Positions 441 to 61,480 of a stretch of 64,000 bases of DNA are shown here, piece by piece. The stretch comes from Dokdonia sp. 4H-3-7-5 (lineage in GTDB: Bacteria; Bacteroidota; Bacteroidia; Flavobacteriales; Flavobacteriaceae). The notes under the pieces are model-generated. The model made no database searches. It saw only the letters and a list, made by a program, of their open reading frames with translations, and was not told where the DNA came from. Each line of letters opens with the position of its first letter. Position 1 is the first letter of the stretch. The DNA lies in NCBI RefSeq assembly GCF_000212355.1, contig NC_015496.1, positions 1,488,001 through 1,552,000 on the forward strand. The letters run 5' to 3'. A program made the translations under genes and the position numbers.

Positions 441-454
441 AAATGTAGATGGTT

Positions 455-472
455 ACGCTTTCGCGAAAGCGT
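455..472. repeat. TTTCGCGAAA palindrome, intergenic
   Basis: Full 18-bp form (ACGCTTTCGCGAAAGCGT); the perfect palindrome extends to 453-474. It lies between the convergent cvpA and SulP stop codons, 14 bp after the cvpA stop. Confidence 0.95.
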
Positions 473-494
473 AATTACACCCTACACCATCTAT

Positions 495-2372
495 TTAATA
501 TCTATCTTTTACTTGCTTGTTAAGGGAGTTGATACACGCTTCAAAAGTATCGTAAACTTCTGTTTCTGGAATTAACTCAGGGATAATTTTAATACGTTCT
601 AGCATATATTTAGGCTGTTTCCTTAAGCCTACAATATGCACATTAATTCCGCCTTGGTTAAGTTGGAGAATCGTGTCTTCTATTGCATATACACCAGACT
701 GATCTACATAAGGCACACGCCCCATACGCAAGATGACGTCTGACGCAGTAGCAGGTATCTGCTTCGTAAGTGCAGAAAATTCGCTAGTATACCCAAAAAA
801 TAACGGACCACGAAGGTGTTTTATAAATACCTCCTCTTTAAGGTGATCTGGAAAAATAAGTTCGTCACTCCATAAAACCTTATTCTTTTCGGCGGCGCGT
901 AGGTCAAAAACTTTAGACTGTCTAGAGGTAAAGTCACCCATTTTTTTCATAAACACAAGGCACGATAGCACAAGCCCAATTCCTACTGCTGCCACTAGGT
1001 CCCACACTACAGATAGCACGAGTACCACAAGCATTATAATAACTTCAGAACTTAGTTTTATAGGTCCCACCTTTAAATCTTTAGGAAGATTAGGGATCGC
1101 TTTAAGCCCTTTGTAATCCATCACCCCTATACCTACGGTAATAAGTATACCTGCAAGTACTGCTGCCGGTATTTGTGAAGCGATAGGACCTAGGGCTAGG
1201 AGTATGAAAAGGAGTAATACACCAGCAATCATTCCTGATAATTTGGTTTTACCACCAGAGTTAATATTTACTACCGTTCTTATCGTTGCTCCAGCACCAG
1301 GTATTCCTCCAAAAAATGAAGCGATAGAGTTACCTATACCTTGACCTATAAGTTCTTTGTTAGGCTTGTGTCTAGTTTTTGTCATATTATCTGCTACTAC
1401 AGAGGTGAGGAGTGAGTCTATTGCTCCTAGAAATGAAAGTGACAGTGCAGTAAGGATATATGGCGATATAATGCTAAACTCAAAATCTGTAATTATGGAA
1501 AGCTTAGGCACTGGAAATCCGCTAGGAATTTCTTGAATAGCTCTGTATTCAAAGGGTGCAAAATAGGCTACTCCTGACACGACCAATAGTGCAACAAGTG
1601 TACTAGGCACTGCGGTTGTAATGCGTTTAAAGCCATAAATAATAAATATGGTAGCAAGTGCAAGAGCTAGCTCTATCCAGTTTATGTTTTGTATTGCGCG
1701 TCCCATTACCTTAAAGGTGCCAACTACTCCAGATGATGATGCTTTTGCAAGCGTTACCGCTTCTTTGTATACATCGGTATCGTCTGTAAGTTTTGCTCTA
1801 CGTATAGTTTCTTCAAAGTTTTCTAAAACTAGGAGGCCTTCGCCTGCCTCATCTTGTAAAATCTTATCTAGAACAATCTCTTGCGCTTGCGGTTTGAAAC
1901 TATCTACATAACTCTCATCTTGATTAGGATAATAACCCACTGCAGGCAAAAGCTGTGTAATAAGAATCATAACGCCTATAGCGGTCATAAAACCAGAAAC
2001 TACAGGATAAGGAATGTACTTAATGTATTTACCTATACCCATTACACCCAGTACAATCTGAAAGAGCCCAGCTAATAAGAAAACTGTGAGTATCGCTGGT
2101 AGTGCTTTCTCTACATCACCATCAAAAGTTGCAATAATACCTGCAATAACCACCATACTTACCGCCGTCATAGGAGCCGTAGGTCCTGATATTTGAGTAG
2201 ATGTGCCTCCAAAAAGAGCCGCAAAAAATGCGATGAAAATAGCACCATATAATCCGGCACTTGGTCCCAGACCAGAAGACACCCCAAAGGCGAGAGCTAG
2301 TGGTAGGGCTACAATTCCTGCAGTAATTCCTCCAAAGGCATCGCCTTTAAGGTGTTTAAAGAAGTTTTTCAT
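495..2372 (-). CDS. SulP family anion transporter with STAS domain
   Basis: This 625-residue membrane protein has the SulP layout: 10-12 hydrophobic helices (about residues 15-475) with the signature region around GGIPGAGATIRT, then a cytoplasmic STAS domain (about 500-620). SulP proteins move sulfate, bicarbonate or other anions, usually with Na+ or H+. Between early helices it carries a hydrophilic stretch of about 90 residues (roughly 145-235) that the neighbouring SulP protein at 3188 lacks. The carbonic anhydrase gene lies upstream on the same strand, separated by a terminator-like hairpin, and a second SulP gene lies beyond it; bicarbonate is therefore the likeliest substrate (inference). 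Start at the ATG preceding KNFFKHLKGDAFGG. Confidence 0.88.
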   Translation of the reverse strand: MKNFFKHLKGDAFGGITAGIVALPLALAFGVSSGLGPSAGLYGAIFIAFFAALFGGTSTQISGPTAPMTAVSMVVIAGIIATFDGDVEKALPAILTVFLLAGLFQIVLGVMGIGKYIKYIPYPVVSGFMTAIGVMILITQLLPAVGYYPNQDESYVDSFKPQAQEIVLDKILQDEAGEGLLVLENFEETIRRAKLTDDTDVYKEAVTLAKASSSGVVGTFKVMGRAIQNINWIELALALATIFIIYGFKRITTAVPSTLVALLVVSGVAYFAPFEYRAIQEIPSGFPVPKLSIITDFEFSIISPYILTALSLSFLGAIDSLLTSVVADNMTKTRHKPNKELIGQGIGNSIASFFGGIPGAGATIRTVVNINSGGKTKLSGMIAGVLLLFILLALGPIASQIPAAVLAGILITVGIGVMDYKGLKAIPNLPKDLKVGPIKLSSEVIIMLVVLVLSVVWDLVAAVGIGLVLSCLVFMKKMGDFTSRQSKVFDLRAAEKNKVLWSDELIFPDHLKEEVFIKHLRGPLFFGYTSEFSALTKQIPATASDVILRMGRVPYVDQSGVYAIEDTILQLNQGGINVHIVGLRKQPKYMLERIKIIPELIPETEVYDTFEACINSLNKQVKDRY

Positions 2373-2411
2373 AATGGTTAGGTTGATGTAAAAACAGAAA
2401 GTTAGTTTTTT

Positions 2412-3187: not shown

Positions 3188-4765
3188 TTATGCTGTTTTT
3201 GGTCTAAACTTAAAGAATTCTATATAGCTTGGAGGATTCTCTACAGTACCTCGTTCTGATATTAGTTTGATATTGATGTTACGGGTCTTTGCTTTATGAG
3301 CAAAGTCTTCTAGTATCTCTATAATATCATTATCTAAAAATCTTGTTTTACGTACATCTAGCTCAAGGTAAGAGTTTTCTGGAAGGTTGTCAAGTTCCTT
3401 TAAGATAGCTCCTTTATTAAAGAATGTCACCTCTTCTGCAAGGGTCATTTTCATTTTTTCAGTACCATTACTTATATCCTCTTTGTGTAAGAAGTGGGAG
3501 TTCTTGTAACTTTTGTAAAGTACCACTACGATACCTACGGCAAGTCCAAGACCTATACCCCATAAAAGATCAATAAAGAAGATACCTACTACCGTTACAA
3601 TAAATGGCACAAATTGTTTCCATCCTGCATTCCACATCGCTTTAAAGGTAGCTGGTTTTGCAAGTTTGTATCCTACAATAAGTAAGATAGCTGCAAGTAC
3701 AGAAAGTGGTATTTTATTAAGTAAAGTAGGTATTAGAATTACAGAAATTAATAATAAGAAACCGTGAATAATAGCGGCCATCTTTGTCTTACCACCAGAT
3801 TGTATGTTTGCAGATGATCTTACGATTACCTGTGTTACAGGTAGTCCTCCTATCATACCAGATAAGATGTTACCCGTACCTTGAGCAAGTAATTCACGAT
3901 TAGTAGGTGTTACCCTTTTTTCTGGATCTAGTTTATCTGTTGCTTCTACACAAAGTAGTGTCTCAAGACTTGCCACAAGTGCTATGGTAAATGCAGTGAC
4001 CCATATAGCTGGGTTTGTTATTGCGCCAAAATTTGGAAAAGCAAATTGACCTATAAAACTATCTACACTATCTGGTACAGGTACGCTTACTAGGTGCTCT
4101 GCACTAATTCCATATGATGTTCCAGACGTACTTATGTAATAGATGATGCCAATAGCTACGGCAACTAGAGGTCCTTGTACTAACTGGAAAAATTTCCCTT
4201 TTTTTGAGAGTACATTACTCCACAAAATGAGAATTGCTAGGGCTATAACTCCAATAACAGTTGCTCCTATACTTATAGAGCCAGCAATATTTCCTAGCTC
4301 AGATAAGGTATTCTCTCCATCTATTTGCGAGAAAGCAAAGTCTCCCTCTGGATCTTCATCATATCCAAAAAAGTGAGGAATTTGCTTGAATATGATAATG
4401 ATTCCAATACCCGTAAGCATCCCTTTAATTACTGATGAAGGGAAGTAATACCCTATAATCCCTGCTTTTAAGAATCCAAACACTAGTTGTATCACACCTC
4501 CTAGTACAACGGCTACTAGAAAGTTTTCATAACCACCCAAAGCACCTATTGCTGTGAGAACAATTGCAGCAAGCCCTGCGGCAGGACCACTAACACCTAT
4601 GTGTGATCCACTTAGGGCACCTACTACAATACCACCTATAATACCTGCGATTAAACCGGAAAATAATGGAGCGCCACTGGCTAGAGCAATACCAAGACAT
4701 AAGGGTAGTGCAACAAAAAATACAACAACACTTGCGGGTAAGTCGTTTTTTAAATATTTGAACAT
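3188..4765 (-). CDS. SulP family transporter, probably bicarbonate
   Basis: About 525 residues: 10-12 hydrophobic helices with the GGLPVTQVIVRSSAN signature near the middle, and a short C-terminal STAS-like domain (about 445-520, including LELDVRKTRFLDND). It lies directly upstream of the carbonic anhydrase gene on the same strand, which favours bicarbonate over sulfate (inference from context; the substrate cannot be read from sequence). I placed the start at the ATG at 4765, because MFKYLKNDLPAS begins where SulP proteins usually begin; an in-frame ATG at 4783 would add six residues. Confidence 0.87.
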   Translation of the reverse strand: MFKYLKNDLPASVVVFFVALPLCLGIALASGAPLFSGLIAGIIGGIVVGALSGSHIGVSGPAAGLAAIVLTAIGALGGYENFLVAVVLGGVIQLVFGFLKAGIIGYYFPSSVIKGMLTGIGIIIIFKQIPHFFGYDEDPEGDFAFSQIDGENTLSELGNIAGSISIGATVIGVIALAILILWSNVLSKKGKFFQLVQGPLVAVAIGIIYYISTSGTSYGISAEHLVSVPVPDSVDSFIGQFAFPNFGAITNPAIWVTAFTIALVASLETLLCVEATDKLDPEKRVTPTNRELLAQGTGNILSGMIGGLPVTQVIVRSSANIQSGGKTKMAAIIHGFLLLISVILIPTLLNKIPLSVLAAILLIVGYKLAKPATFKAMWNAGWKQFVPFIVTVVGIFFIDLLWGIGLGLAVGIVVVLYKSYKNSHFLHKEDISNGTEKMKMTLAEEVTFFNKGAILKELDNLPENSYLELDVRKTRFLDNDIIEILEDFAHKAKTRNINIKLISERGTVENPPSYIEFFKFRPKTA

Positions 4766-5448: not shown

Positions 5449-6213
5449 TTACAATTCTCTAATATCTGTAGTGGGAATCCAGCCCGTTCTCCCATCCACA
5501 AGAAGTATTTTTTTCCAATTGTCTACAGTTTCCAGCACCATTACTTTTGTGCCTTCATGTAATAAAAATGCTTCTTGACTCGATAAAGTAGGCTCTCCTT
5601 TTACTTGAGATTCTTTTGCAAATACGATTGCTGGGTTGTCCTTGGATATTTTCGCGAAAGCTGAATAAGCAAATAATATTGAAAACACCGCGAGTAAAAG
5701 ACTAACTAATGACGACACAAATAGCGCACGTTTCTTAGTAGAACTAGCGGTAAAGTAATACCCTAAAAATAACAGTGTACACAATGCAACAAATAGTACC
5801 GTTGCATATGCCCATCCGTCTGTAGTGAATAATGTAAGTACGCTATTATACCACTTTTTAAACGTGTTTTCTGGTAAGGGTGTGATGGCATCTATGGTCA
5901 TCTTCTCTGCAAAAGAGGCATTGTTTTTTATCTCTTGATCTGCAGGAGCTAGCCGCTTTGCTTTCTCATAATAATAGATGCTTGGAGCAACATTATTGAG
6001 TTTAAAATGTGCATTTGCTAGATTATAATAAATGGAAGCGCTCTCTTGATTAGTATCTAGTACCTTTTTGTAAGCATCAATAGCTTCTTGAAACTGACCA
6101 TTTGCATAATGGCTATTGCCTTGCTCAAAAAGTTGCTCTGGTGTTTGTGCGGTGGTAAAAATGGCCGTTAGCATAAAAACGGTCACTACGAGATAATTGA
6201 TTGCGTTTCTCAT
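5449..6213 (-). CDS. batE: BatE: TPR and SH3-like membrane protein
   Basis: Last gene of the Bat (Bacteroides aerotolerance) operon; 254 residues. A signal peptide (1-22) is followed by two to three TPR units (about 25-100), two TM helices (about 135-190) and a C-terminal SH3-like domain (EGTKVMVLETVDNWKKI, then GRTGWIP). It starts 2 bp after the batD stop, so the two are translationally linked. The Bat proteins are thought to form a membrane-periplasm complex together with the MoxR ATPase and VWA proteins; the exact function is unsettled. A palindromic repeat copy encodes SAFAKIS in the loop after the second helix. Confidence 0.88.
   Translation of the reverse strand: MRNAINYLVVTVFMLTAIFTTAQTPEQLFEQGNSHYANGQFQEAIDAYKKVLDTNQESASIYYNLANAHFKLNNVAPSIYYYEKAKRLAPADQEIKNNASFAEKMTIDAITPLPENTFKKWYNSVLTLFTTDGWAYATVLFVALCTLLFLGYYFTASSTKKRALFVSSLVSLLLAVFSILFAYSAFAKISKDNPAIVFAKESQVKGEPTLSSQEAFLLHEGTKVMVLETVDNWKKILLVDGRTGWIPTTDIREL
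5650..5662. repeat. TTTCGCGAAA palindrome inside batE
   Basis: Core plus one arm; read on the minus strand as SAFAK, in the segment after a TM helix. Confidence 0.85.
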
Positions 6214-6214
6214 G

Positions 6215-7978
6215 TTACAGTTGTTTATCTAAAGTGCTTATTACTCGTACAGCCTTGTCATAATCTTGCTGCATCGCTACATCTCCAGTAGGAGTGTATC
6301 TTGCAAACTCACAGCTTTCTAATAAGCTTATAAACTCAATATTAGTAGCAGTCTCTACATTTCTTTCCTCTAGGAGTCTTGTGATACGATCTTTAGACAT
6401 CTCACTAGTAGTAATGTTTAGCTTTGCTTTGAGATAGTTATGCAGTGCTCGTTCCATTGCGATATAAAACTCTTTCTGGTTACCTAGACTTTTCTTTGCA
6501 GTACTTAAAAATTTACGAGCTAGCTTATCTGCTTTTCTAATTCTATTACCCGTGACATCACTGGCATAAGCATCTCGCTTTTTACGAACAATCATCGCAA
6601 GCGGAATCAAAAGAAAAGGGACAATTACTAATGTCCAGAACGTATTACTTTTAAAAAACTGTTCCTTTAAGACAGGAGTTAAATTGGCTTTTGTTTTAAT
6701 ATATTGAAACTGATTTTGAGCAGCAACTGCTTCTTCACCACTAGGAACACTGCTATCTGTGGCTACCGAATTTTCTAAAGGTCCATTATTTACAGTAACG
6801 ACAATATCATCAGATGTGAGACGCTCGTATGTTTTAGTCTTAGGGTTAAAATAAGAAAAAGAGAGTGGTGGTATTGGATAGGTACCCTTAAATTGAGGAA
6901 TTACCGTGTACGTATTTTTTTTCATACCACTCATCCCTGCCAGATTAGTGCGTATTCGGTCGCCATTTTCTGGTTCGTATACTTCTAGGGAGCTTGGTAA
7001 TTTAGGTTCTGGGAGCTCAAAAAGTTTTAAGTTTCCTTTTCCTTTTACTTCAACACTCATCTGTAATGCTTCGCCAGCGTCTAGGGAGTCTTTATCTGTA
7101 GTTACCGCAAATTCAAATTCTCCTACGGCTCCACCAAAATACTCGGGTTTCCCCGCTTCTGGCAGTGGTTTTACATCTACAATTCTCTTTGCAGCACTTA
7201 CGGTAATATTTGCACTTTTACTAAGTGGTCTCCCAAATATATCTCTTCGATTAGTAGGCACACTCACAGCCACGCTGAGGCTAAGAGGTTCAATCTCTAG
7301 TTTTCCTGTTTTTTGAGGGTAAAGTACGGTACGTCTTAAGATGACATATCTATATGGTTTCCCTTGGTAGGTGCCATCGTATATTTTAAACTGTTTCTCA
7401 TCTGCACTTTGATTCCAGAAATCTGCAAATTTTGGTGATTCAATTTCGCGCCAATTATTTACAGATGTAGTTTCAGACACGTAAAGCTTATATACTACGG
7501 TAAAAGCCTCATTGAGGTAAGGGCTTGTTTTTGAAACTTCTGCTACCAGATGTACATTTTCTTTAGCTAGGTAGGTGGGGTCGTTTGGGTCTTTAGGTAT
7601 TTCTACAGCACCAGTGACTACTACGGGAACCGCTGGTGACTTATAAACCTGACCATCTACGGTTATTTCTGCCTGTCCTATTTCTAAGTTCCCCTGTCTT
7701 GTAGGGGTTAAGAAATAAGAAAATGTCTTTGAAAAGCTACCTTTTCCATTAATCCACTGTCTGCTCGTAGTTTGACTAGGACCACCCACCACAGTAAAGC
7801 CATCAAAATCTGGAGACTTAAAGTTGTCACCATCTTGATTCATTGTAAAATCTACACGTAAACGTTCATTTACACCTAGTCTGTTTTTACTCAGTTTTGC
7901 GTTAAACTGTACGTCTTGTGCAACGGTTGTTAATGTTGCGAGTAAGAATAGAATTAGTATGTTTAATTTCATCTTCAT
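6215..7978 (-). CDS. batD: BatD family protein
   Basis: 587 residues: signal peptide (1-20), a long periplasmic region with repeated beta-sandwich modules (about 21-440, containing the R--LYPQKTG-LEI pattern typical of BatD), one TM helix near 455-475 and a cytoplasmic tail. BatD belongs to the oxygen-tolerance family and is thought to work with the VWA proteins BatA and BatB at the inner membrane. It overlaps the batC stop by one base at 7978 and is followed 2 bp later by batE, so it sits firmly inside the operon. Confidence 0.9.
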   Translation of the reverse strand: MKMKLNILILFLLATLTTVAQDVQFNAKLSKNRLGVNERLRVDFTMNQDGDNFKSPDFDGFTVVGGPSQTTSRQWINGKGSFSKTFSYFLTPTRQGNLEIGQAEITVDGQVYKSPAVPVVVTGAVEIPKDPNDPTYLAKENVHLVAEVSKTSPYLNEAFTVVYKLYVSETTSVNNWREIESPKFADFWNQSADEKQFKIYDGTYQGKPYRYVILRRTVLYPQKTGKLEIEPLSLSVAVSVPTNRRDIFGRPLSKSANITVSAAKRIVDVKPLPEAGKPEYFGGAVGEFEFAVTTDKDSLDAGEALQMSVEVKGKGNLKLFELPEPKLPSSLEVYEPENGDRIRTNLAGMSGMKKNTYTVIPQFKGTYPIPPLSFSYFNPKTKTYERLTSDDIVVTVNNGPLENSVATDSSVPSGEEAVAAQNQFQYIKTKANLTPVLKEQFFKSNTFWTLVIVPFLLIPLAMIVRKKRDAYASDVTGNRIRKADKLARKFLSTAKKSLGNQKEFYIAMERALHNYLKAKLNITTSEMSKDRITRLLEERNVETATNIEFISLLESCEFARYTPTGDVAMQQDYDKAVRVISTLDKQL

Positions 7979-8916
7979 TACCAGTCTTTCTCAGTTTTGA
8001 CTTTTGCACCTTTCACTTTTTGTGCGTTCATCTTTTCTTGCGTTTTCTTCTCTTGATCCTGCATAGCTTTTAGTAAGCTTTGCACTTGTTGAGGAGATAA
8101 CTGTCCTTGTTTAGGCTGTGGTGGAGGTTGTTTTTTATCTTCTTCACCCTCGCCACCATCTTGCTTTTTATCTTTGTCTTCAGGCTTTCCATTATCATCT
8201 TCTTTCTTTTCACCGTCATCCTCTTTTTGCTCTCCTTTATCATCGGTTTCATCTTTGTCGCCGTCTTCTCCTTCTTTCTTATCTCCGTCGCCTTCTTCGT
8301 TTTCCTTCTTCTCGTCTTCTTTTTTATCTTCGTCTTGATCTTCTTTATCGTCGTTGTCACTACCGCCACCACCATCGTTTTCTTTCTCTTTCTTGGCTAG
8401 TTGTAGATTGTAACGAGTTTCTTCATCTGTAGGGTCTGCACGCAATGCATTCTTATAAGCCTCGACTGCACCATCCCATTGCTCTTGTTGGAATAAAGCA
8501 TTCCCAAGGTTATGAAAGGCTTTGTGTTTTTCCTTTTTAGTTTGAGCAACTGCAGTAGCTTTTACCAGGGCATCTGTACTTTCTTCCCATCTTTTGTTCT
8601 TGTAGTAATTGTTACCCGCATTATACTTTGCAGGAACACTCTCTGGTGTCAATGAGATTGCTGCTCTTAAATTTGATTCCGCTTTCGCGAAAGCGTTAAA
8701 ATCCACAACGCCACCTTCTTGATTAACCATAGCTTCCGTCCCTTCTACAATGAGCTCTCGAGCTTGATCTGCATAAGGGTTTTCTAGAGGTGCCGCTTTT
8801 TTATCTTGTGCTGCGATGGTAAACGAGAGTAGTAGGGCTACTACAAATAGTAAACCTTTGCCACCTTGTAAAGGAGACTTCGTTATGTGTGATATTTTAG
8901 TTATAAACTGTTTCAT
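7978..8916 (-). CDS. batC: BatC: TPR protein with acidic low-complexity tail
   Basis: 312 residues. An N-terminal hydrophobic signal (about 22-36) is followed by two to three TPR repeats (about 55-170, with AFHNLGNALF and AVEAYKNALRADP), then about 85 residues made almost only of D, E, K, G and N (about 180-265), then a Q/P-rich linker and a basic C-terminus (KGAKVKTEKDW). The first 20 residues include KSPLQGGKG, which resembles a repeat-derived segment and lengthens the N-terminus ahead of the signal; the true start could be later. A palindromic repeat encodes NAFAKAES between the signal and the TPRs. Long ORFs on the opposite strand here are composition artefacts. Confidence 0.88.
   Translation of the reverse strand: MKQFITKISHITKSPLQGGKGLLFVVALLLSFTIAAQDKKAAPLENPYADQARELIVEGTEAMVNQEGGVVDFNAFAKAESNLRAAISLTPESVPAKYNAGNNYYKNKRWEESTDALVKATAVAQTKKEKHKAFHNLGNALFQQEQWDGAVEAYKNALRADPTDEETRYNLQLAKKEKENDGGGGSDNDDKEDQDEDKKEDEKKENEEGDGDKKEGEDGDKDETDDKGEQKEDDGEKKEDDNGKPEDKDKKQDGGEGEEDKKQPPPQPKQGQLSPQQVQSLLKAMQDQEKKTQEKMNAQKVKGAKVKTEKDW
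8690..8705. repeat. TTTCGCGAAA palindrome inside batC
   Basis: 16-bp perfect form, read on the minus strand as NAFAKAE at the edge of the TPR region. Confidence 0.95.
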
Positions 8917-11037: not shown

Positions 11038-12701
11038 TAGTTCTCTTCTTTTTCTTTTGCCTGGAGTTCGATACTTTGCATCACGCGCTCTGCGATTTCT
11101 TTTCCGTAGGGATCTTCATCGTGCCAACTAATGAATAGTTGCTGAATCACATTTTCTGCTTGGAATGTTATGAATGCATACTCTCCAGCATCTACAGTTC
11201 CTTTTTCCTGATCAATAACCTGCGAGCCACTACCAAAAGTTTTTATTCCTTCTGCACCATTTGGTGTAGCAAACTTCTCACTCTTAAGAATATCTGCCGA
11301 GAATCCGTTTGCTTCAAACATAGCAAGTTGGCTAGATATCAATTGTTCTACTTTTACATCGGCGCCTTTTGGGAACTTAAATTGGTACACACCAATAGTC
11401 ACGTTTGCAGGAAAGGTTTGCCATCCAAATGCTGTTGCTTCAATCTTTCCTTGAGCCTCTGGTGGTAATGGTACTTCTTGACGTGTAAGAACCTTTGGAG
11501 TACTTATTACCATAGAAGGGATACCATATTCACTCGTGATCCAGTTACCTTCAGCAAGCTCTCTTGTCATGTTTCCAAAGACAAAATCCTTCACTTCACT
11601 ATATCCTTTGACAGCGATTCCTATTCCTGTAGCTAGTAGTAAAATTGCGAGGATACCGCCTATTCCAGAAAGCCAAAGTTTCCTTTTACGCTTTCGCGAA
11701 AGCTCCTCTCTGTAATCTTCCTGCATCATTAATTCCTCAACAGTAGGAGGTGGTAATGCTTCTCTAGTTTGTTTTACAATATCTTCTACAGCAATTCTAT
11801 CTGCTTGTGCCTTTCCTTCTGGCGGATTCACACGCGCAAATTTTACAAGGTCTGCACGTTTAAAAATATCTTTAATACTAGCAATAGTATGCTTGCTAAA
11901 ATCGATATGACCACTATCGCGTTCCATCTCAAGACGGGCAATAAGCTCGTCTGTGGTGCTTTCCATAGAACGATCGTACACCTTTTCCTCATAATAGCGA
12001 CGTATGGCGTCTGTGAGTACAGAGTAGTATTCTTTGTACTTAGCTTCGGCAATGAGGTTTTTACTATCTAGCTCTGTAAGAGTAGCCATTGCTTGCTCAA
12101 AAGGAGGGATGTATTGCTCTGCTTCTTTTTGTTTCTTGTTGCGACGTAATAACCACCATAAGAATAATGAAATCGCTACCACTACTGGTATAATCCATAA
12201 CAGATATTTCCACCAGTTGCTATAGTCTCTTGGTAGGTCTATAATAGGTTTAATGTCATATAATCCCTGATTTACGGTGTCAAGAATCACATTATTTACC
12301 TCAACAAGAAAGGTGTCTGTTTCAACCGTTCTTGTGCCTATAATTACTTTTTGTTTTGGGATTACATAACGACCACTGTCAAACTGTGTCAAGCCATATT
12401 TTTTAATAAGCTTCATTCTAGCAGAGGTAGAACTTGCTGTATCAATCGCATAACTCTCAATAACCTCCAGCGGACTAAAAGTCTGTCCTTCTGGAAAAAT
12501 AACAGCTTCACCATCATTTGCTAGCGCCTCAATGATGTAATTGATTTGCTGGCCTATGAGAATACTTGTAGAATCTATGGTGGCACGTACATCATCTTGC
12601 GAATGAACGTGAAGTGAGGGAATAAATAGCAATAAGAATAACGATAACGCACGAAGAATCGCATTCTTAGGAGTTGTTATGTATGTTACGTTGTTATTCA
12701 T
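11037..12701 (-). CDS. BatD-like membrane protein with extra C-terminal domain
   Basis: 554 residues, a protein commonly found between DUF58 and batA in Flavobacteriia. A signal peptide (about 14-34) is followed by a BatD-like beta-sandwich (35-160), a TM helix (165-187), a cytoplasmic segment with a DUF4381-like helical part (about 200-330), a second TM (345-365) and an alpha/beta domain (about 375-545) that I do not recognise. The first half suggests a role in the Bat complex parallel to BatD; the C-terminal domain is unusual. A palindromic repeat encodes ELSRKRKRK just before the second TM, giving a basic cluster at the membrane face. Confidence 0.75.
   Translation of the reverse strand: MNNNVTYITTPKNAILRALSLFLLLFIPSLHVHSQDDVRATIDSTSILIGQQINYIIEALANDGEAVIFPEGQTFSPLEVIESYAIDTASSTSARMKLIKKYGLTQFDSGRYVIPKQKVIIGTRTVETDTFLVEVNNVILDTVNQGLYDIKPIIDLPRDYSNWWKYLLWIIPVVVAISLFLWWLLRRNKKQKEAEQYIPPFEQAMATLTELDSKNLIAEAKYKEYYSVLTDAIRRYYEEKVYDRSMESTTDELIARLEMERDSGHIDFSKHTIASIKDIFKRADLVKFARVNPPEGKAQADRIAVEDIVKQTREALPPPTVEELMMQEDYREELSRKRKRKLWLSGIGGILAILLLATGIGIAVKGYSEVKDFVFGNMTRELAEGNWITSEYGIPSMVISTPKVLTRQEVPLPPEAQGKIEATAFGWQTFPANVTIGVYQFKFPKGADVKVEQLISSQLAMFEANGFSADILKSEKFATPNGAEGIKTFGSGSQVIDQEKGTVDAGEYAFITFQAENVIQQLFISWHDEDPYGKEIAERVMQSIELQAKEKEEN
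11690..11703. repeat. TTTCGCGAAA palindrome inside BatD-like gene
   Basis: 14-bp perfect form, read on the minus strand as ELSRKR next to a TM helix. Confidence 0.93.
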
Positions 12702-14835: not shown

Positions 14836-15702
14836 ATGAAATTTTCAAGAATTATTCAAGGTTGCATGACGTGGGGTGTGTGGGGTAAGCAATTCAATCA
14901 GCAGCAAATGATTGAGACTATGAACCATTGTTTAGAGAAAGGCATTACCACTTTTGATCATGCAGATATTTATGGTGATTACACGACAGAGGGTGAATGG
15001 GGTAACGCTTTCGCGAAAGCGAATATCTCCAGAGACCATATACAAATCATAAGCAAATGCGGTATCCAAATGAAAGGCGATGCACGAGCAGAAAATACCA
15101 TCAAACATTATCAATATGATAAAGAGTACATCATCTCAAGTGCCGAAAGGTCACTGAAAGAGCTGCGTACTGAATACCTAGATTTATTTTTATTACACAG
15201 ACCTAGTCCGCTACTTGAGCCAGATGAAGTTCATGAGGCAGTGAGCCAATTACAACACCAAGGCAAGATTAAGGATTTTGGAGTATCTAATTTTACACCG
15301 CGAGGCGTAGACTTAGTGGCAACAAAAAGTAAGGTAAGCGCAAATCAAATTGAGATTTCTATCACTGAGCGTTCTTCACTTACAGACGGAACGCTAGATT
15401 ATATGATGGCTCATCAAATCACGCCAATGAGTTGGAGTCCGCTGGGTTCTGTTTTTAGAGAAGACACTCCACAGAATATGCGCATTAAGAAAAAATTGAA
15501 GGAACTAGGCGATAAGTATAACGCAACTGAAGACCAACTACTGTTAGCATGGTTGCTCAAACACCCAGCAAATATTCATCCAGTTATAGGGACTACAAGT
15601 AAAGACCGCATCACAAATGCTGTAGCAGCAGTAGCGATTAATCTTGAAAGAAAAGATTGGTTTGAACTGCTGGAAGCTAGTACAGGAGAAGAAGTAGCGT
15701 AG
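14836..15702 (+). CDS. Aldo/keto reductase (YdhF-like)
   Basis: 288-residue cytoplasmic oxidoreductase of the NADPH-dependent aldo/keto reductase superfamily. The catalytic tetrad is complete: D41 and Y46 in FDHADIYG, K74 in ISKCG and H121 in LLHRP. The family is a TIM barrel that reduces aldehydes or ketones; the substrate is unknown. A palindromic repeat lies in the loop between Y46 and K74 and encodes NAFAKAN, apparently tolerated beside the active-site strands. It is followed 29 bp later by an SDR gene on the same strand, so they are probably cotranscribed. Confidence 0.92.
   Translation: MKFSRIIQGCMTWGVWGKQFNQQQMIETMNHCLEKGITTFDHADIYGDYTTEGEWGNAFAKANISRDHIQIISKCGIQMKGDARAENTIKHYQYDKEYIISSAERSLKELRTEYLDLFLLHRPSPLLEPDEVHEAVSQLQHQGKIKDFGVSNFTPRGVDLVATKSKVSANQIEISITERSSLTDGTLDYMMAHQITPMSWSPLGSVFREDTPQNMRIKKKLKELGDKYNATEDQLLLAWLLKHPANIHPVIGTTSKDRITNAVAAVAINLERKDWFELLEASTGEEVA
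15006..15021. repeat. TTTCGCGAAA palindrome inside aldo/keto reductase gene
   Basis: 16-bp perfect form, read on the plus strand as NAFAKAN (residues 57-63). Confidence 0.95.
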
Positions 15703-16508: not shown

Positions 16509-17645
16509 ATGATCAATAAACGCCTTCTTGTCAAGAACTTACTCGCTCATAATGACGAGAACAGTTTCTACGACAAAAAACGTAAGATTGACATCAGTAA
16601 CAAAGAAGGGAAAGCAAAGTTTTTAAAGCATATTTGTGCGCTTTCTAACAGTAACCCAAAGAACAATTCTTTTATAGTAATAGGCGTAGATGATGGCGAA
16701 AATGCTATTATAGGTGTGCCATTTTTTGATGACAGCAAACTGCAGAATCTCATAAATGCATACTTAGATAATCCTCCTATTATATCTTATGAGAATATTC
16801 CTTTTCCTAATTTGCCGCAAGACAAAGTAGTGGGACTTGTTACCATACGAGCACAAGATAAGCTTACAGCGTTACTGCGTAATATCTGGAAATATTGGGG
16901 TGGTACGGTGTTTTTTAGAGATGGGAGTATGTCTATGCCTAAGACGTTCAAGTCAGATATTGTAGATGTAAATAGTGAGATTGTTGCGGCAATAGAAAAT
17001 CACGCAAAAAACAGCATAGGTCTCACGCTTGATGGTGTAATGGACTTTGTAAATCATCGTCATAAGGACATGGAGAGCACTTATAAGGTGTTTAAAGAGC
17101 AGTTTGTGTTGTGCTGGGCTGGAAATAAAAAAGTGGTTAAAGGTCAGACGTACTACTCTCGGGTAGATATAGAGCTCATTAATGAACAAGTAAAACTATT
17201 TTACTCAACACTAGATGAGGTAACTATTACTTATGATGAGGATTGCTTCAAAATTCAAGAATTTGTACACTTGGGAGTACAAGAGCACTTTAAATATTAT
17301 CCACTAGAAGAGGTAGTAATACGCTTTCGCGAAAGCGGTACTTATACCATTGATACAACGCTTATTTTTGAACCACCAGTGATAGATAAGAAGACCTTGT
17401 ATCATATTTTTAATAATAACAATGTTATTTTTTATAAACTGAAACGAGGTATAAAGCTTAATCAAGGGGAGTGGAATGATTTATATAATCTAGCTAATAC
17501 CTACTTGATTTGTTATCTCAATGGTTTTGAAACAGCCATACAGAAGCTGGTAGAATTGAAACCTTATTTGAAAGTTTTAGATGGTGCTGTCTACGGAAGA
17601 TATAAGGAAGCCATGCGTATTCTGAGAAAAGTGCGTTATGAATGA
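16509..17645 (+). CDS. AlbA_2/DUF5929-type ATP-binding protein
   Basis: 378 residues. The N-terminal half (about 1-160) has the AlbA_2-like pattern (LLAHNDENSFYDKKRKID, later FIVIGVDDG and IIGVPF) seen in predicted ATP- or DNA-binding proteins; the C-terminal half matches what I remember as DUF5929, common in Flavobacteriia. The function is unknown. A palindromic repeat encodes VIRFRESGT in the C-terminal half. It lies 27 bp after the SDR stop and 26 bp before the phosphatase gene, so it may belong to a plus-strand transcript running to NudK. Confidence 0.72.
   Translation: MINKRLLVKNLLAHNDENSFYDKKRKIDISNKEGKAKFLKHICALSNSNPKNNSFIVIGVDDGENAIIGVPFFDDSKLQNLINAYLDNPPIISYENIPFPNLPQDKVVGLVTIRAQDKLTALLRNIWKYWGGTVFFRDGSMSMPKTFKSDIVDVNSEIVAAIENHAKNSIGLTLDGVMDFVNHRHKDMESTYKVFKEQFVLCWAGNKKVVKGQTYYSRVDIELINEQVKLFYSTLDEVTITYDEDCFKIQEFVHLGVQEHFKYYPLEEVVIRFRESGTYTIDTTLIFEPPVIDKKTLYHIFNNNNVIFYKLKRGIKLNQGEWNDLYNLANTYLICYLNGFETAIQKLVELKPYLKVLDGAVYGRYKEAMRILRKVRYE
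17322..17337. repeat. TTTCGCGAAA palindrome inside AlbA_2/DUF5929 gene
   Basis: 16-bp perfect form, read on the plus strand as IRFRESG. Confidence 0.95.
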
Positions 17646-22145: not shown

Positions 22146-22163
22146 ACGCTTTCGCGAAAGCGT
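22146..22163. repeat. TTTCGCGAAA palindrome, intergenic
   Basis: Full 18-bp form in the divergent region between greA and the Rieske-like lipoprotein gene, 15 bp before the latter's start codon. Confidence 0.95.
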
Positions 22164-26347: not shown

Positions 26348-26365
26348 ACGCTTTCGCGAAAGCGT
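26348..26365. repeat. TTTCGCGAAA palindrome in the leuS leader
   Basis: Full 18-bp form, inside the predicted leuS leader and 18 bp upstream of the leuS start codon. Confidence 0.95.
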
Positions 26366-30979: not shown

Positions 30980-30995
30980 CGCTTTCGCGAAAGCG
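30980..30995. repeat. TTTCGCGAAA palindrome, intergenic
   Basis: 16-bp perfect form, about 11 bp after the alanine dehydrogenase stop codon. Confidence 0.95.
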
Positions 30996-32406: not shown

Positions 32407-32422
32407 ACGCTTTCGCAAAAGC
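32407..32422. repeat. Degenerate palindrome copy
   Basis: GCTTTCGCAAAAGC, one base away from the core; between trxA and clpP. Not counted in the 26 exact copies. Confidence 0.6.
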
Positions 32423-32524
32423 AAAACGATACACCACGTAGCAGTTTTGATTACTAAAAGAAAATAATGATGAGGTTTCTGTCTAGGCAGGAACGATAAA
32501 TAGCCGTAATCGCGGCACCTGTTT

Positions 32525-36688: not shown

Positions 36689-36704
36689 CGCTTTCGCGAA
36701 AGCG
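36689..36704. repeat. TTTCGCGAAA palindrome, intergenic
   Basis: 16-bp perfect form, 7 bp after the M20 peptidase stop codon. Confidence 0.95.
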
Positions 36705-44054: not shown

Positions 44055-44611
44055 ACTAAAAGTGTATTTATAGATTCGGTAGCAGTTACCATTCTTTCAG
44101 GCACGGTGCCTTTTACAAGAATAAATGGTTTTTTATATTTCTCTAAGGTATGTTTAAAATAATTAAACATTTCCTCTCTTCTTTCTGGGCGATCTCGTAA
44201 ATCATCTTGCTCCCAAGGAGTGTCTATGTACGTTAAAAGGTACAAATCATATTTATTTTCTAATGCCATTTTTTCCAATAATTCTGGACACCAGCCATCA
44301 TAGTAAGCCTCGCTATATATTTTTGTGGTCAGTAAATCAGTATCACAAATAACTAGATTTGTAGCATTAGCTACTGCAGCATTCTCTAGTTTTATCTGGC
44401 CTTTGGCAATAGGCAACAGATCCATTGGTCTACATATCTTTTGCTCTGTGTCCCATAAATCTTGAAGATATTCTCTTGCATATTCTGGAACTAGGGGTGC
44501 GTTGTAATGCTGAGCTAGCTTTCGCGAAAGCGTACTTTTCCCACTACTTTCTGGTCCAATAAGGCAAACTCTTATGCAATTACTGGTGACTTGTCTAAGT
44601 TCTTCTTCCAT
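44051..44611 (-). CDS. NadR-like P-loop kinase
   Basis: 186 residues. Walker A is G19-PESSGKST (19-27), immediately followed by the palindrome-encoded LSRK; downstream are the P-E-Y-A-R-E segment and the DTPWEQDDLRDRPERREEMF lid region. These match the ribosylnicotinamide kinase domain of NadR without the adenylyltransferase half. It would phosphorylate a vitamin nucleoside entering through the adjacent PnuC-type transporter: nicotinamide riboside or, given the YkoF-like gene, possibly thiamine. It overlaps the transporter gene by 40 bp. Confidence 0.82.
   Translation of the reverse strand: MEEELRQVTSNCIRVCLIGPESSGKSTLSRKLAQHYNAPLVPEYAREYLQDLWDTEQKICRPMDLLPIAKGQIKLENAAVANATNLVICDTDLLTTKIYSEAYYDGWCPELLEKMALENKYDLYLLTYIDTPWEQDDLRDRPERREEMFNYFKHTLEKYKKPFILVKGTVPERMVTATESINTLLV
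44518..44531. repeat. TTTCGCGAAA palindrome inside NadR-like kinase gene
   Basis: 14-bp perfect form, read on the minus strand as TLSRKLA, right after Walker A. Confidence 0.93.
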
Positions 44612-46433: not shown

Positions 46434-47147
46434 TTAGCAGTCATTCCATGAGTTCTCTTCAAAAGCTGTGCCTATAACGACCATTGTTGCCCCAGCCTCA
46501 TGTGCTAGCTCCATTTGAGTAGAATTTCTAATACCTCCGCCCACGATTACTGGAATGGTGAGTGTATCACAAACGGCTTTGATTATTGAAGGTTGAACTG
46601 CCTTTTTTGCTCCGCTTCCTGCTTCTAGATAAATACATTTTTTACCTAAATATTGTCCTGCAAGTGCTGTGTCTACTATGCGCTCTTTATCATCTTGTGA
46701 CATTGGGCTGGTCTGGCTCACTCGTTGCACGGCAGTTATGGATCCGCCGTCTATGAGTAAGTATCCTGTGGGGATTACTTCAAGCTCACTTTGTTGTACT
46801 GCTCTCGCAGCTTTCGTTTGCTGGCCTATTAAAAATTCGGCATTATCACCAGATAGTAGTGATAAGAATAATATTGCGTCTGCATCTGGAGTAACCTGAT
46901 TGTAATTTCCAGGAAACAGAATAATGGGTAATGCTGTTTCGGCTTTTAGAAGTTGGACCACAGTTGCTGTTTTACGTGCTGGATCTGTACTTCCGCCTAT
47001 AAAAATGTGAGTTGTGGCGGTGGGTATTTTTTTCAAGTACGCTTTCGCGAAAGCGGAATCCAATTCAAACTTATCTGGATCTATGAGAATTGCGAGTAGT
47101 TTACCGCCTTCTTCTTTTTTGTGTATGATTTGGGAATATATAGTCAC
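46434..47147 (-). CDS. Geranylgeranylglyceryl phosphate synthase-like protein (PcrB family)
   Basis: About 237 residues from the GTG at 47147. A TIM barrel with LLAILIDPDKF (about 16-26), IFIGGS and VIVGGGIRNS phosphate-binding loops, and YLEAGSG. This is the group II GGGPS family that attaches a polyprenyl chain to sn-glycerol-1-phosphate; its physiological role in Flavobacteriia is not established. An ATG at 47207 would give 20 extra residues without family similarity. A palindrome encodes DSAFAKAYL after the first loop. Next upstream is a phosphopantetheinyl transferase gene. Confidence 0.82.
   Translation of the reverse strand: MTIYSQIIHKKEEGGKLLAILIDPDKFELDSAFAKAYLKKIPTATTHIFIGGSTDPARKTATVVQLLKAETALPIILFPGNYNQVTPDADAILFLSLLSGDNAEFLIGQQTKAARAVQQSELEVIPTGYLLIDGGSITAVQRVSQTSPMSQDDKERIVDTALAGQYLGKKCIYLEAGSGAKKAVQPSIIKAVCDTLTIPVIVGGGIRNSTQMELAHEAGATMVVIGTAFEENSWNDC
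47040..47055. repeat. TTTCGCGAAA palindrome inside GGGPS-like gene
   Basis: 16-bp perfect form, read on the minus strand as DSAFAKAY. Confidence 0.95.
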
Positions 47148-47246: not shown

Positions 47247-47870
47247 TCAAAACCCATATACACAGGTAAATCCCTCGAACTCCATAAAGGTGAGATCATA
47301 GGTGGAGACTACGCCTTCATAATTTACCGTGGCTATAGTCTTGCCATCGTCAAAATCAAAATCTGTAACGTCAATATGCTTTAAGAAACTCAGTCCTTCT
47401 TGTGAATATAGTTTGTAAAGTGATTCCTTTGCTCCCCATACAATGGTGAGTTTGCGCATGCGAGCATCTGCATTAGTAAGTGTGTAATATTCTTCTATAG
47501 GTGTAAATTTATGAGCAATGCGTAAGATTTTGTCACGTTGCTTTTCTATATCGATACCTACGGGTTGATTACTTACAATAATGGCAGTGAAGGTGTAGCT
47601 ATGTGTGATAGAAATGTGTTTCCCATCATGAAGGTGGGGTTTTCCATTCTTATCGTAATATAAATCGAAATCTGTATATCCAGCTTCGGCGAGGAGATGG
47701 CGTATACTCATGAAGCCTCTTTGGTGAAGCTCAGACTTCATTCCTTGTAGTCTATTTTGGCAATGATCTGTAAGTTTTATATTTCGCGAAAGCGTAGTAA
47801 TATCTTCTTCAATCTTCCAAATATAGACTGTTGTACTCGAGCTAACTGTTATCGTTTTGTAAAGAGGCAT
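47247..47870 (-). CDS. 4'-phosphopantetheinyl transferase
   Basis: 207 residues. The Sfp-type motifs are visible: ISITHSYTF (about 90-98), GIDIEKQRD (about 107-115) and [11 protein letters not shown] (about 143-153), where the Mg2+-binding D and E lie. It transfers phosphopantetheine from CoA to carrier proteins. The divergent ahcY gene begins 71 bp upstream. A palindrome encodes TTLSRNIK near residue 30. Confidence 0.9.
47782..47795. repeat. TTTCGCGAAA palindrome inside PPTase gene
   Basis: Core plus one arm, read on the minus strand as TLSRNI. Confidence 0.85.
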
Positions 47871-49288: not shown

Positions 49289-49302
49289 CGCTTTCGCGAA
49301 AA
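49289..49302. repeat. TTTCGCGAAA palindrome, intergenic
   Basis: Core plus one arm, 30 bp after the ahcY stop codon. Confidence 0.88.
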
Positions 49303-50726: not shown

Positions 50727-50744
50727 ACGCTTTCGCGAAAGCGT
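50727..50744. repeat. TTTCGCGAAA palindrome, intergenic
   Basis: Full 18-bp form, 6 bp beyond the stop codon of the Lrp gene. Confidence 0.95.
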
Positions 50745-54883: not shown

Positions 54884-54897
54884 CGCTTTCGCGAAAG
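54884..54897. repeat. TTTCGCGAAA palindrome, intergenic
   Basis: Core with partial arms, directly adjoining the stop codon of the 54898 lipoprotein gene. Confidence 0.9.
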
Positions 54898-56298: not shown

Positions 56299-56311
56299 TT
56301 TCGCGAAAGCG
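56299..56311. repeat. TTTCGCGAAA palindrome, intergenic
   Basis: Core plus one arm, 15 bp beyond the gldD stop codon. Confidence 0.85.
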
Positions 56312-58764: not shown

Positions 58765-58776
58765 GCTTTCGCGAAA
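58765..58776. repeat. TTTCGCGAAA palindrome, intergenic
   Basis: Core plus one arm, 40 bp upstream of the ssb start codon. Confidence 0.85.
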
Positions 58777-59526: not shown

Positions 59527-59534
59527 TAAATTTG
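59527..59534 (+). promoter_or_regulatory. TAnnTTTG promoter element of AraC gene
   Basis: TAAATTTG 14 bp before the start codon; no well-spaced TTG. Confidence 0.4.
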
Positions 59535-59547
59535 TAAAAAAAAGGCC

Positions 59548-60420
59548 ATGCTTCTGCATAAACCCACTTTTGAATCTATTACTCCAGATTTTGGTAATTC
59601 ATTTACATATCAAAGATTTGATGAGCATCATGTTAATGATAACAGTTTGTGGCATTATCACCCAGAGATTGAGCTGGTTTATGTAAATGGAGGTACAGGA
59701 AGACGACAGGTGGGAAGTAACTTGTCTTATTATACATGGGGTACACTTATTCTTGTAGGTAGTAATTTGCCACATTGTGGTTTTACAGATGAACTTACGG
59801 GCAATAAAAGTGAGACTGTAATACACATGAAAACAGATTTTCTAGGAGATACTTTTTTTGACCTTCCAGAAATGGCGTCAATTAAAAGACTTTTACAAGT
59901 AGCACAACGCGGGATTGTTTTTTCTGGAGAGACTAAAAAGAGAGTAGGGGCAATGATGGAAGAGATGGAGGATCAATCAGATTTTAATCGTCTCATGACT
60001 CAAATAACTGTATTAAATGAGCTGGCAACTACAAAAGAGTTTAGAATATTAAATGCAGATGGCTTCTCTTTACTCTCTGATGTAAAAGATAATAACCGTA
60101 TTAATGAGGTCTTTAATTATGTAAAAACTCATTTTAAAGAAGAAATTCCTCTAGAAGAAATGGCAAATATTACAAACTTGACCATTCCATCATTTTGTCG
60201 CTATTTTAAAAAGATTACTCATAAAACATTTACGCAGTTTGTAAATGAGTATCGACTCGTGCACGCATCTAGACTGCTAGCGGAGCAACCCATGAGTATT
60301 ACCCAAGTATGTTATGAGAGCGGATTTAATAACTTCTCTCACTTTAATAAAAAGTTTAAAGCCTTTACAGGCCAGAACCCTTCAGATTATAGAAAGGAGC
60401 TTAAGACTGTTTTAGAGTAA
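59548..60420 (+). CDS. AraC family transcriptional regulator
   Basis: 290 residues: N-terminal cupin-like sensing domain (about 15-150, with YHPEIELVYV) and a C-terminal AraC double helix-turn-helix (about 190-288) ending in the QVCYESGFNNFSHFNKKFKAFTGQNPSDYRK signature. The ligand is not known. It converges on mutY 5 bp away. It is alone, with no obvious target beside it. Confidence 0.93.
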   Translation: MLLHKPTFESITPDFGNSFTYQRFDEHHVNDNSLWHYHPEIELVYVNGGTGRRQVGSNLSYYTWGTLILVGSNLPHCGFTDELTGNKSETVIHMKTDFLGDTFFDLPEMASIKRLLQVAQRGIVFSGETKKRVGAMMEEMEDQSDFNRLMTQITVLNELATTKEFRILNADGFSLLSDVKDNNRINEVFNYVKTHFKEEIPLEEMANITNLTIPSFCRYFKKITHKTFTQFVNEYRLVHASRLLAEQPMSITQVCYESGFNNFSHFNKKFKAFTGQNPSDYRKELKTVLE

Positions 60421-60424
60421 CGAA

Positions 60425-61480
60425 CTACTGAGGCAAAAACTCTTCTAAAAATCTACCTATCAATATAGGTACAGGAAAATCTCTTATAGTTGATAAGGGT
60501 GTTCCTTTTGCACCAGTGGCTGTTACATCAACTACCCAGAAGGTAGTATGTAGATGCTGGTGAGATAATTTATGAACGATTGGTTTCTCATTAAATCTTA
60601 CCACCTCTGTAATGTTCATTTCTTGAGCATGCTTTGAGTTTGTAACGCTTTCGCGAAAGCGGGATTCTTCACCATCAGTAAGCGCGGTATCAAGTTCAAT
60701 TACTGGGAACTCGTAGAGTCCTTGCCAGATCCCCTTGCCGGTACGTTGTTGTAATAAGGTCTGTCCGTCTTTATCTCTAAAGACAAGATAGTTGAGGTAG
60801 CGATTACGCACTTTAGTCTTTTTAAGCTTTACAGGGAGTTCAGAAACTTTGTTCTTTTGCAAGGCTACGCACTTGTCATTATATATGCAATGAAGGCAGT
60901 ATGGATTTTGAGGTTTGCATTGTATCGCGCCAAACTCCATAATAGCTTGATTAAAATCTGCTGGGCGTTTTACATCTATGAGCTCTTGGGCGAGCGCTTT
61001 AAACTCTTTAATTCCGGGCGTACTATTTATAGGAGTGTCTATACCATATACCCTTGAGAGGACTCTATATACATTACCATCTACCACCGCGGTAGGCTCG
61101 TTAAAGCTTATGCTTGCAATGGCACTTGCCGTATAATCACCTACTCCTTTTAACTTTTTAATTTCTTCATAGGTATTTGGAAAGACTCCACCGTGCTCAT
61201 TTACAATAATTTGAGCAGATGCGTGGAGGTTTCTACCACGGGAATAATAGCCTAATCCTTGCCAAAGTTTAAGTACTTCCTCTTCGGTTGCATTTGCAAG
61301 ATCTTGTACTGTAGGAAATGACTTTGTAAAAGCCAAATAATAGGGTAATCCTTGCGCTACTCTCGTCTGTTGAAGAATAATTTCTGAGAGCCAAATCTTA
61401 TAAGGGTCCTTAGTGTTGCGCCATGGCATATCGCGTTTGTGTTCTAAGTACCAAGCAATGAGTTTGTTAGAAAATGACAA
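60425..61480 (-). CDS. mutY: A/G-specific adenine glycosylase MutY
   Basis: 351 residues. It removes adenine paired with 8-oxoguanine. The HhH motif is GVGDYTASAIASI (about 111-123), the catalytic E is in LSEIILQQTR and the D in VDGNV; the iron-sulfur loop C-x6-C-x2-C-x5-C is intact (CKPQNPYC, HC, NDKC), and the C-terminal Nudix-like domain checks 8-oxoG. A palindrome encodes ESRFRESVTN near residue 275, in the linker between domains. Confidence 0.96.
   Translation of the reverse strand: MSFSNKLIAWYLEHKRDMPWRNTKDPYKIWLSEIILQQTRVAQGLPYYLAFTKSFPTVQDLANATEEEVLKLWQGLGYYSRGRNLHASAQIIVNEHGGVFPNTYEEIKKLKGVGDYTASAIASISFNEPTAVVDGNVYRVLSRVYGIDTPINSTPGIKEFKALAQELIDVKRPADFNQAIMEFGAIQCKPQNPYCLHCIYNDKCVALQKNKVSELPVKLKKTKVRNRYLNYLVFRDKDGQTLLQQRTGKGIWQGLYEFPVIELDTALTDGEESRFRESVTNSKHAQEMNITEVVRFNEKPIVHKLSHQHLHTTFWVVDVTATGAKGTPLSTIRDFPVPILIGRFLEEFLPQ
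60646..60661. repeat. TTTCGCGAAA palindrome inside mutY
   Basis: 16-bp perfect form, read on the minus strand as SRFRESVT. Confidence 0.95.

Follow-up and report, generated by a model that had tools for sequence, protein, structure and literature searches.

DNA uptake sequences, which tag self-DNA in natural transformation, have been described for the Pasteurellaceae and the Neisseriaceae (PMC7811141). The uptake signal sequence (USS) of the Haemophilus influenzae type is present in 1,465 copies, with an exact 9-bp core and weaker flanking segments (PMC7811141); USS arise by substitution and are clade specific (PMC1626085), and temperate phages of the Pasteurellaceae are reported to collect them (PMC6776037). 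The DNA uptake sequence (DUS) of Neisseria has a 10-bp core, shows 97% identity compared to an average of about 85%, lies in permissive parts of the core genome, and has a spacing that matches conversion fragments (PMC2397512). Here, we analyzed a palindromic motif, with the 10-mer core TTTCGCGAAA, that recurs throughout a 64,000-base stretch (the window, bases 1488001 to 1552000) of the single-contig, 3,389,993-base genome of Dokdonia sp. 4H-3-7-5. We consider this motif a candidate DNA uptake sequence, an assignment for which the chances stand, in our judgment, about level. It resembles USS in having an exact core with weaker flanks, an origin by substitution, a clade-specific distribution, and copies in phages, and it resembles the Neisseria DUS in its 10-bp core, its conservation, and its permissive placement. 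Unlike USS, the motif is palindromic, has symmetric arms, and is spaced more widely than the ~1 kb of USS, and it occurs in the Dokdonia lineage, alongside the competence machinery of the Bacteroidota, where an uptake role is proposed here from sequence; unlike the Neisseria DUS, the signal is palindromic and its flanks are conserved.

Abundance, distribution, and anatomy of the motif

The original prediction had claimed 26 exact copies of TTTCGCGAAA in the window, 14 of them in an extended form, and our recount gave the same values: 26 exact 10-mers (mean of 0.11 and largest count of 2 in shuffled sequence) and 14 exact copies of the 16-mer CGCTTTCGCGAAAGCG (none in shuffles), with the 16-mers spanning positions 456 to 60661. 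The window contains 28 TCGCGA hexamers compared to 26 exact 10-mers, so copies broken at the outer bases are rare. The copies are spread across the whole window, as claimed, but their spacing, given as 1.4 to 4 kb, measured 553 to 5,099 bp with a mean of 2,408 bp. The motif also does not mark a single locus, since the genome contains 1,012 copies of TTTCGCGAAA and 10 of the reversed word. A third-order Markov model expects 0.51 copies in a 464-kb sample of this genome in which we found 157, so the frequency is not one that such a model predicts; moreover, the excess extends beyond the window and is present in all 18 Dokdonia genomes searched. The original prediction named no function; among the candidates it offered, a repair or recombination role and a chromosome-organizing role retain some probability. 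The earlier observation is correct and was understated; what our analysis adds to it are the extended arms, the degree of spacing regularity, the conservation, the phage copies, and the uptake-sequence candidate.

The measurements of anatomy, mismatch tolerance, placement, and spacing below come from samples of four genomes, covering about 10 to 16% of each: 464 kb of the source genome (G000, including the window), 400 kb of another Dokdonia genome (G007), and 555 kb and 340 kb from two further genera, g11 and g191, respectively. The density of TTTCGCGAAA in the sampled G000 stretches is 0.338 per kb, slightly above the whole-genome value of 0.299.

Each of the 18 Dokdonia genomes contains 481 to 1,195 copies of TTTCGCGAAA, compared to 9 to 23 of the reversed control. 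In one of this genus (G003), the LeuRS matches that of Dokdonia sinensis at every column compared. In a family sample of 397 genomes from 237 genera, six genomes have at least 559 copies, namely, two Dokdonia genomes, all three g11 genomes (595, 700, and 648), and the single g191 genome (559), while the other 391 have 0 to 34; in a phylum sample of 395 genomes, the source genome alone has more than 29. A LeuRS tree (one gene, FastTree) places Dokdonia, g11, and g191 within one 18-row clade with a support of 98, together with Leeuwenhoekiella, Aequorivita, Mesonia, Salinimicrobium, Salegentibacter, Christiangramia, and two uncultured Dokdonia neighbors, and the motif pattern on this tree amounts to three changes. 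Those eight relatives, as well as Flavobacterium and Psychroserpens, have no copies in 32 to 37 kb (two loci, one genome each), these named motif-free genomes being judged on loci and not on whole-genome counts. One contig (L013) of a metagenome-assembled genome labeled Crocinitomix carries a single motif copy and a LeuRS that resembles those of Dokdonia; it is probably mislabeled or misbinned.

The 10-mer forms the center of a symmetric signal that spans ~50 bp. The trinucleotides CGC and GCG flank the core on both sides, with each base present in 73 to 100% of arms in Dokdonia and g11 and in 56 to 93% in g191. Between positions -4 and -20, C is scarce in the 5' arm (0.07 to 0.10 compared to a background of 0.18 to 0.19 in Dokdonia and g11, and more weakly so in g191, at 0.17 versus 0.23), while T and G are abundant, on either strand. 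This arm signal fades near -20, with C in G000 remaining slightly under background to about -40. The arms are alike in coding and intergenic copies (T at -5, -6, -9, -12, and -15), and none of eight tests showed a significant period of three within them (p of 0.06 to 0.55). We found no complementarity between left and right arms beyond that of composition, so the signal is not one long stem. An extended hairpin was rejected on this basis, as the arms do not pair, and the 22-base palindrome, which alone can fold as DNA, is uninformative on function. An intrinsic terminator is likewise not supported, because the core is followed on its 3' side by an A/C-rich arm and not by a T-run, also at intergenic copies, and 90 of 157 copies are genic. 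A suspected anti-correlation of the two arms did not hold up: in G000, the arm scores show a positive correlation.

To describe how strictly the core is kept, exact copies can be set beside words with one mismatch. These number 157 and 28 in G000 (15.2 one-mismatch words expected from a third-order Markov model), 114 and 31 in G007 (14.9 expected), and 119 and 17 in g11 (10.1 expected). The g191 sample has 59 exact copies and 46 one-mismatch words (14.7 expected), and this large number of one-off copies suggests that its motif system is weaker or decaying.

Conservation, origin, and spacing of the copies

We compared the window to aligned sequence of three other genomes. Against G004 (91.5% identity), all 16 coding and all 9 noncoding copies keep an intact core, compared to 48% and 58% of random 10-mers, respectively. 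The corresponding values are 15 of 16 and 10 of 10 against G006 (93% identity; random 10-mers, 56% and 65%) and 13 of 16 and 7 of 9 against G001 (79% identity; random 10-mers, 14% and 22%), with binomial P values for G001 of 3e-9 for coding and 6e-4 for noncoding copies. The G001 total is 20 of 25 intact cores, or 19 of 24 with another choice of alignment piece. Where a loss of the core is clearly aligned, it is a single substitution.

Between genera, some coding copies occupy exactly the same position in homologous proteins: 4 of 8 between G007 and g191, 2 of 10 between g11 and g191, and 1 of 6 between G007 and g11, with 0 of 12 between G000 and g11 (two more are 1 and 6 bases off) and 0 of 3 between G000 and g191. 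The chance expectation, for a wider window of ±45 nucleotides, is 0.01 to 0.19 per comparison. These data suggest a motif-bearing common ancestor with later losses, and parallel gains occur too. In LeuRS, the peptide is SAFAK in Dokdonia and SRFRES in g11, with the motif one base apart and in a different frame.

When we aligned coding copies to motif-free relatives, the bases opposite the copies matched 3.5 to 4.9 of the 10 core positions, compared to 5.8 to 6.7 for 10-mers of the same genes, in comparisons that come from few genes, mostly LeuRS, include some paralogue matches, and are not independent. There was no exact remnant of the core in 134 comparisons. Judged from these alignments, the coding copies sit in variable, permissive spots of the proteins.

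The same alignments bear on whether the motif is a mobile palindromic element (of the repetitive extragenic palindromic [REP] or miniature inverted-repeat transposable element [MITE] type) that copies itself by insertion, as the many interspersed copies with an identical core might suggest; the original prediction had listed a self-spreading element among its candidates. At 10 of 13 coding sites examined, motif-free homologues have no gap opposite the copy (0 of 111 comparisons, 77 of them LeuRS), so most examined copies arose by substitution. The other three sites are ambiguous: gaps appear in 7 of 17 comparisons, above the 4.7% background, but these sites lie near N termini and encode the peptide AFAKAQQ, where length is presumably variable in any case. 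In addition, flank composition is near background within about 40 bp, and the clear losses are substitutions. The mobile-element explanation is thus largely refuted, and we assign it only a negligible probability.

Copies are spaced more evenly than chance. The coefficient of variation (CV) of the spacing is 0.49, 0.47, 0.44, and 0.62 in G000, G007, g11, and g191, respectively, while simulations run on the same stretches, with coding and intergenic densities preserved, have mean CVs of 1.03, 1.03, 0.95, and 0.89. The lowest CVs among 300 simulations are 0.83, 0.77, 0.74, and 0.62, so that g191 is just level with its lowest simulated value. Samples of 20 kb cut off long gaps and thereby lower the CV, and the simulations were cut likewise; over the unbroken first 364 kb of G000 (99 distances), the CV is 0.63. 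Distances shorter than 600 bp make up 3.7%, 2.1%, 0%, and 4.8% of the total in the four samples, compared to 25%, 25%, 18%, and 15% in simulations. Counts per 20 kb are also under-dispersed, with variance-to-mean ratios of 0.39 to 0.54, values as low as which were reached by 0, 3, 0, and 7 of 300 simulations. The average spacing across samples is 2.7 to 4.7 kb.

Regular spacing in the sampled stretches, strict conservation, and a palindrome with a large symmetric footprint are also what might be expected of a chromosome-organizing or topology site, at which a nucleoid protein, condensin loader, or topoisomerase would act at about 1,000 regular positions. The parS, Noc, and matS sites show regional bias, whereas motif density is not correlated with the distance from base 1 across 20 stretches (Spearman coefficient of -0.03, p = 0.89; the scale starts at base 1, not at a located origin). 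Relatives of the same clade manage without the motif, and the host-like density of copies in phages, described below, is unexpected for such a site. On balance, we find an organizing role improbable.

Coding and intergenic calls were made with our own open reading frame (ORF) scorer and not with a gene caller. By these calls, 90 of the 157 G000 copies are genic (0.22 per kb) and 67 are intergenic (1.28 per kb), with a peak of 3.6 per kb between convergent genes. This preference for convergent genes weakens to 2.0 per kb in G007 and 1.1 per kb in g11 and is absent in g191 (1 copy, 0.19 per kb). Genic copies use all three frames, encoding FAK (49 copies), SRK or SRN (24 copies), or FRE (17 copies) in G000. 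In three cases, copies encoding AFAKAQQ lie 44 to 59 bases past the gene start (L110:1087, L110:13595, and L112:15630); this peptide resembles the end of a signal peptide, and the motif may be used there as protein sequence. The copies in the window are as follows.

459 to 468: core, intergenic (16-mer at 456 to 471)
2500 to 2509: core, intergenic (16-mer at 2497 to 2512)
5650 to 5659: core, genic, peptide AFAK
8683 to 8692: core within a 16-mer, in a TPR gene, peptide AFAKA
11692 to 11701: core, genic, peptide LSRK
15009 to 15018: core within a 16-mer, in an aldo/keto reductase gene, peptide AFAKA
17325 to 17334: core within a 16-mer, in a DUF5929 gene, peptide RFRES
20151 to 20160: core within a 16-mer, genic, peptide AFAKA
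22150 to 22159: core within a 16-mer, intergenic
23662 to 23671: core, in a TonB-dependent receptor gene, peptide AFAKA
26352 to 26361: core within a 16-mer, at the start of the LeuRS gene, peptide LSRKR
26905 to 26914: core, in the LeuRS gene, peptide SAFAKTGN; the g11 motif here is shifted by one base
30983 to 30992: core within a 16-mer, intergenic
32408 to 32423: decayed copy, CGCTTTCGCAAAAGCA; G004, G006, and G001 have an intact core at the same place
36082 to 36091: core, genic, peptide FRES
36692 to 36701: core within a 16-mer, intergenic
38803 to 38812: core, genic, peptide FRES
40772 to 40781: core within a 16-mer, genic, peptide RFRES
44520 to 44529: core, genic, peptide LSRK; G006 lost this copy by one substitution
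47043 to 47052: core within a 16-mer, genic, peptide AFAKA
47782 to 47791: core, genic, peptide LSRN
49292 to 49301: core, intergenic
50731 to 50740: core within a 16-mer, intergenic
54887 to 54896: core, intergenic
56299 to 56308: core, intergenic by the ORF scorer; a 109-amino-acid ORF of the mechanical list overlaps it
58767 to 58776: core, intergenic
60649 to 60658: core, genic, peptide RFRES (16-mer at 60646 to 60661)

We also inspected the five longest motif-free gaps among the first 100 listed motif places of G000 (the first 364 kb). One (L310) contains a NACHT gene and aligns to G004 in three pieces only, over about 2.6 of 11.5 kb. In another (L313), about 8 of 11 kb can be aligned to G004, and two core-broken copies are present, one with an otherwise perfect 22-base palindrome. 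The first of these two gaps is mostly, and the second partly, absent from this near relative. A third (L312) has two group II introns (3314 to 3580 and 6930 to 7196) that lie 3.6 kb apart on the same strand.

Phage copies and candidate readers of the signal

Viral contigs were scanned for the exact 16-mer (41 stretches). Twelve contigs have 0.10 to 0.27 cores per kb, a host-like density that is biased upward because they were picked for a repeated core, and at the 30 distinct sites in these contigs, the arms are likewise C-poor as far as -20 (0.10 to 0.11 compared to 0.19). Hallmark phage genes are present in four of five checked contigs: one carries genes for a terminase, portal, major head, sheath, and baseplate; a second carries those for a portal, head protease, major head, and tape measure; and two have an integrase, accompanied in one by a tape measure gene and in the other by replication genes. 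In the fifth contig, the only matches are to a phage family whose function is unknown and, weakly, to a depolymerase. Motif copies fall within genes for terminase, portal, and protease. Tailed-phage contigs with the full extended motif are L229, L246, L239, L214, and L217. The motif could help to assign such phages to their presumed hosts. Two phages of a Nonlabens-related marine host, whose own motif status is not established, have 0 copies in 70.7 kb; they are 98% identical where aligned and have no annotated integrase.

These phage copies, some of which lie inside structural genes, would also fit a two-way, Chi-like mark for intracellular recombination or self-DNA recognition. Here, a helicase-nuclease or RecA loader would recognize the motif on DNA ends and stop degradation there, RecA would be loaded on the GT-rich strand just 5' of it, and phages would carry the motif to survive the nuclease. 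Like Chi, the motif is abundant and short and has a GT-rich context: the arms 5' of the core are C-poor and T/G-rich on either strand, a kind of sequence that RecA is said to prefer, and even spacing and conservation suit one mark every few kilobases. However, known Chi sites are short, nonpalindromic, and strand-biased, whereas this core is its own reverse complement and so has no polarity or strand bias, and its far larger footprint of 50 bp is large for a single-strand recognizer. The two Nonlabens-related-host phages without a copy also speak against a Chi-like mark, within the limit set by their host's unestablished motif status. We therefore regard it as unlikely. A related but improbable possibility is an intracellular self-DNA license, in which a nuclease or recombination machine would treat DNA without a copy every few kilobases as foreign, and phages would have evolved copies of the full 50-bp signal, some inside structural genes, to pass as self. 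If true, this would be sequence-based self-marking without chemical modification, of which we found none described for this lineage.

The original prediction had likened the motif to highly iterated palindrome 1 (HIP1) of cyanobacteria, and the likeness holds for abundance. Like HIP1 (GCGATCGC) and other cyanobacterial HIPs, the Dokdonia motif is highly iterated, palindromic, and lineage specific (PMC4390886), and it occurs in both coding and noncoding DNA (90 and 67 of 157 copies); unlike HIP1, the signal is longer, has arms, and is strongly regular in spacing. Cyanobacterial HIP sequences track methyltransferases (PMC4390886), so we asked whether a motif kept by methylation or methylation-directed repair could explain our data. 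We found no such link: PF00145 is without a match in the source genome, and the one match to PF01555 scores 21 bits, under the 26.7 cut-off (other methyltransferase families were not searched), and G006, G007, G017, and G258 have no match to either family. PF01555 scores above its cut-off in 2 of the 10 motif-bearing genomes and in 6 of the 10 motif-free ones; for PF00145, the counts are 4 of 10 and 3 of 10, respectively. We consider a HIP1-like motif kept by methylation very improbable.

Among competence genes, ComEC (PF03772) is present in 20 of 20 genomes, motif bearing or motif free alike. DUF5689, a domain that occurs in a protein essential for Riemerella competence (PMC8459023), is present in 28 of 28 genomes, motif-free ones included. 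In G000, the DUF5689 gene adjoins a gene for a protein of 931 residues whose CarboxypepD_reg-like domain scores 31.6 bits, just under the 32.2 cut-off; this protein resembles the predicted outer-membrane partner in Riemerella (PMC8459023). ComEC, the DUF5689 protein, and this partner all correspond to proteins that Riemerella needs for competence (PMC8459023), and their presence fits an uptake role. Homologues of both proteins are present in 20 of 20 fetched loci; their adjacency was seen in G000. The C-terminal part of the DUF5689 protein (L203 and kin) seemingly exists in two versions that differ even within Dokdonia, which could reflect domain swapping or diversifying selection.

In a 9-mer scan of loci L009 to L088 and L131 to L158, we saw weaker repeats in some genera and none equally strong. 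Psychroserpens (L012 and L048) has CTTCGGAAA and TCTTCGGAA, with 8 and 9 copies in 23 kb compared to 0.4 and 0.2 expected, perhaps another lineage-specific interspersed motif. Wocania, Olleya, and Flaviramulus (L033, L037, and L066) share the 9-mer GTATCGAGA, with 5 to 9 copies per locus; this is probably an interspersed repeat.

The motif as a candidate uptake sequence

We propose uptake as the role of the motif because its abundance, exact core with degenerate flanks, even spacing, conservation at permissive sites, origin by substitution, patchy loss, and phage copies match those of DUS and USS. A surface or periplasmic protein would bind the exact core, aided by the C-poor, T/G-rich arms, and, given that the signal is palindromic over ~50 bp, would probably act as a dimer. 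Tagged fragments would be preferentially imported and recombined into the chromosome, so that intact copies would replace broken ones, and new copies would arise by point mutation at tolerant places and then spread. As one tag per imported fragment would be enough, copies would settle at roughly even distances, and resident prophages of such hosts would be expected to collect tags too. We infer both that an uptake machine reads the signal and that recombination drives the copies.

Several observations weigh against an uptake role. To our knowledge, none of the known USS and DUS is palindromic. The tested competence genes are equally present in motif-free genera, and we found no reader or specificity protein among the competence and methyltransferase families tested. 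DUF5689 as the specificity protein was rejected, since the motif labels change four times on its tree (built without row L184, which was too short) and the motif-bearing lineages do not group together in any bootstrap tree. The two remaining motif-free gaps (L311 and L314) have no introns and no near-core words, except one four-mismatch word in L311. Motif density falls with genome size, a trend that is not significant (n = 13, p = 0.11). Among the matches listed in a search of the open-license literature, there was no report of competence in Dokdonia. Finally, 23% of strong USS copies in H. influenzae lie less than 100 bp from another (PMC7811141), whereas such close pairs are rare for the Dokdonia motif.

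Among the matches listed from the open-license PMC literature, we found no report of this motif or of uptake sequences in the Bacteroidota. Within the phylum, Riemerella columbina reportedly prefers its own DNA, with candidate k-mers given and none tested in the source (PMC7965970), and Riemerella anatipestifer has an unusual competence machinery (PMC8459023). If the motif does not serve uptake, about 1,000 conserved, evenly spaced, phage-borne sites remain unexplained in a marine genus. If it does, this would be a third, independent, and palindromic case of uptake sequences, in which selfish drive and benefit could be tested against each other in a new machine, and Dokdonia would supply an uptake signal for work on competence in the Bacteroidota. 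In both cases, donor DNA for Dokdonia genetics may do better when it carries the motif.

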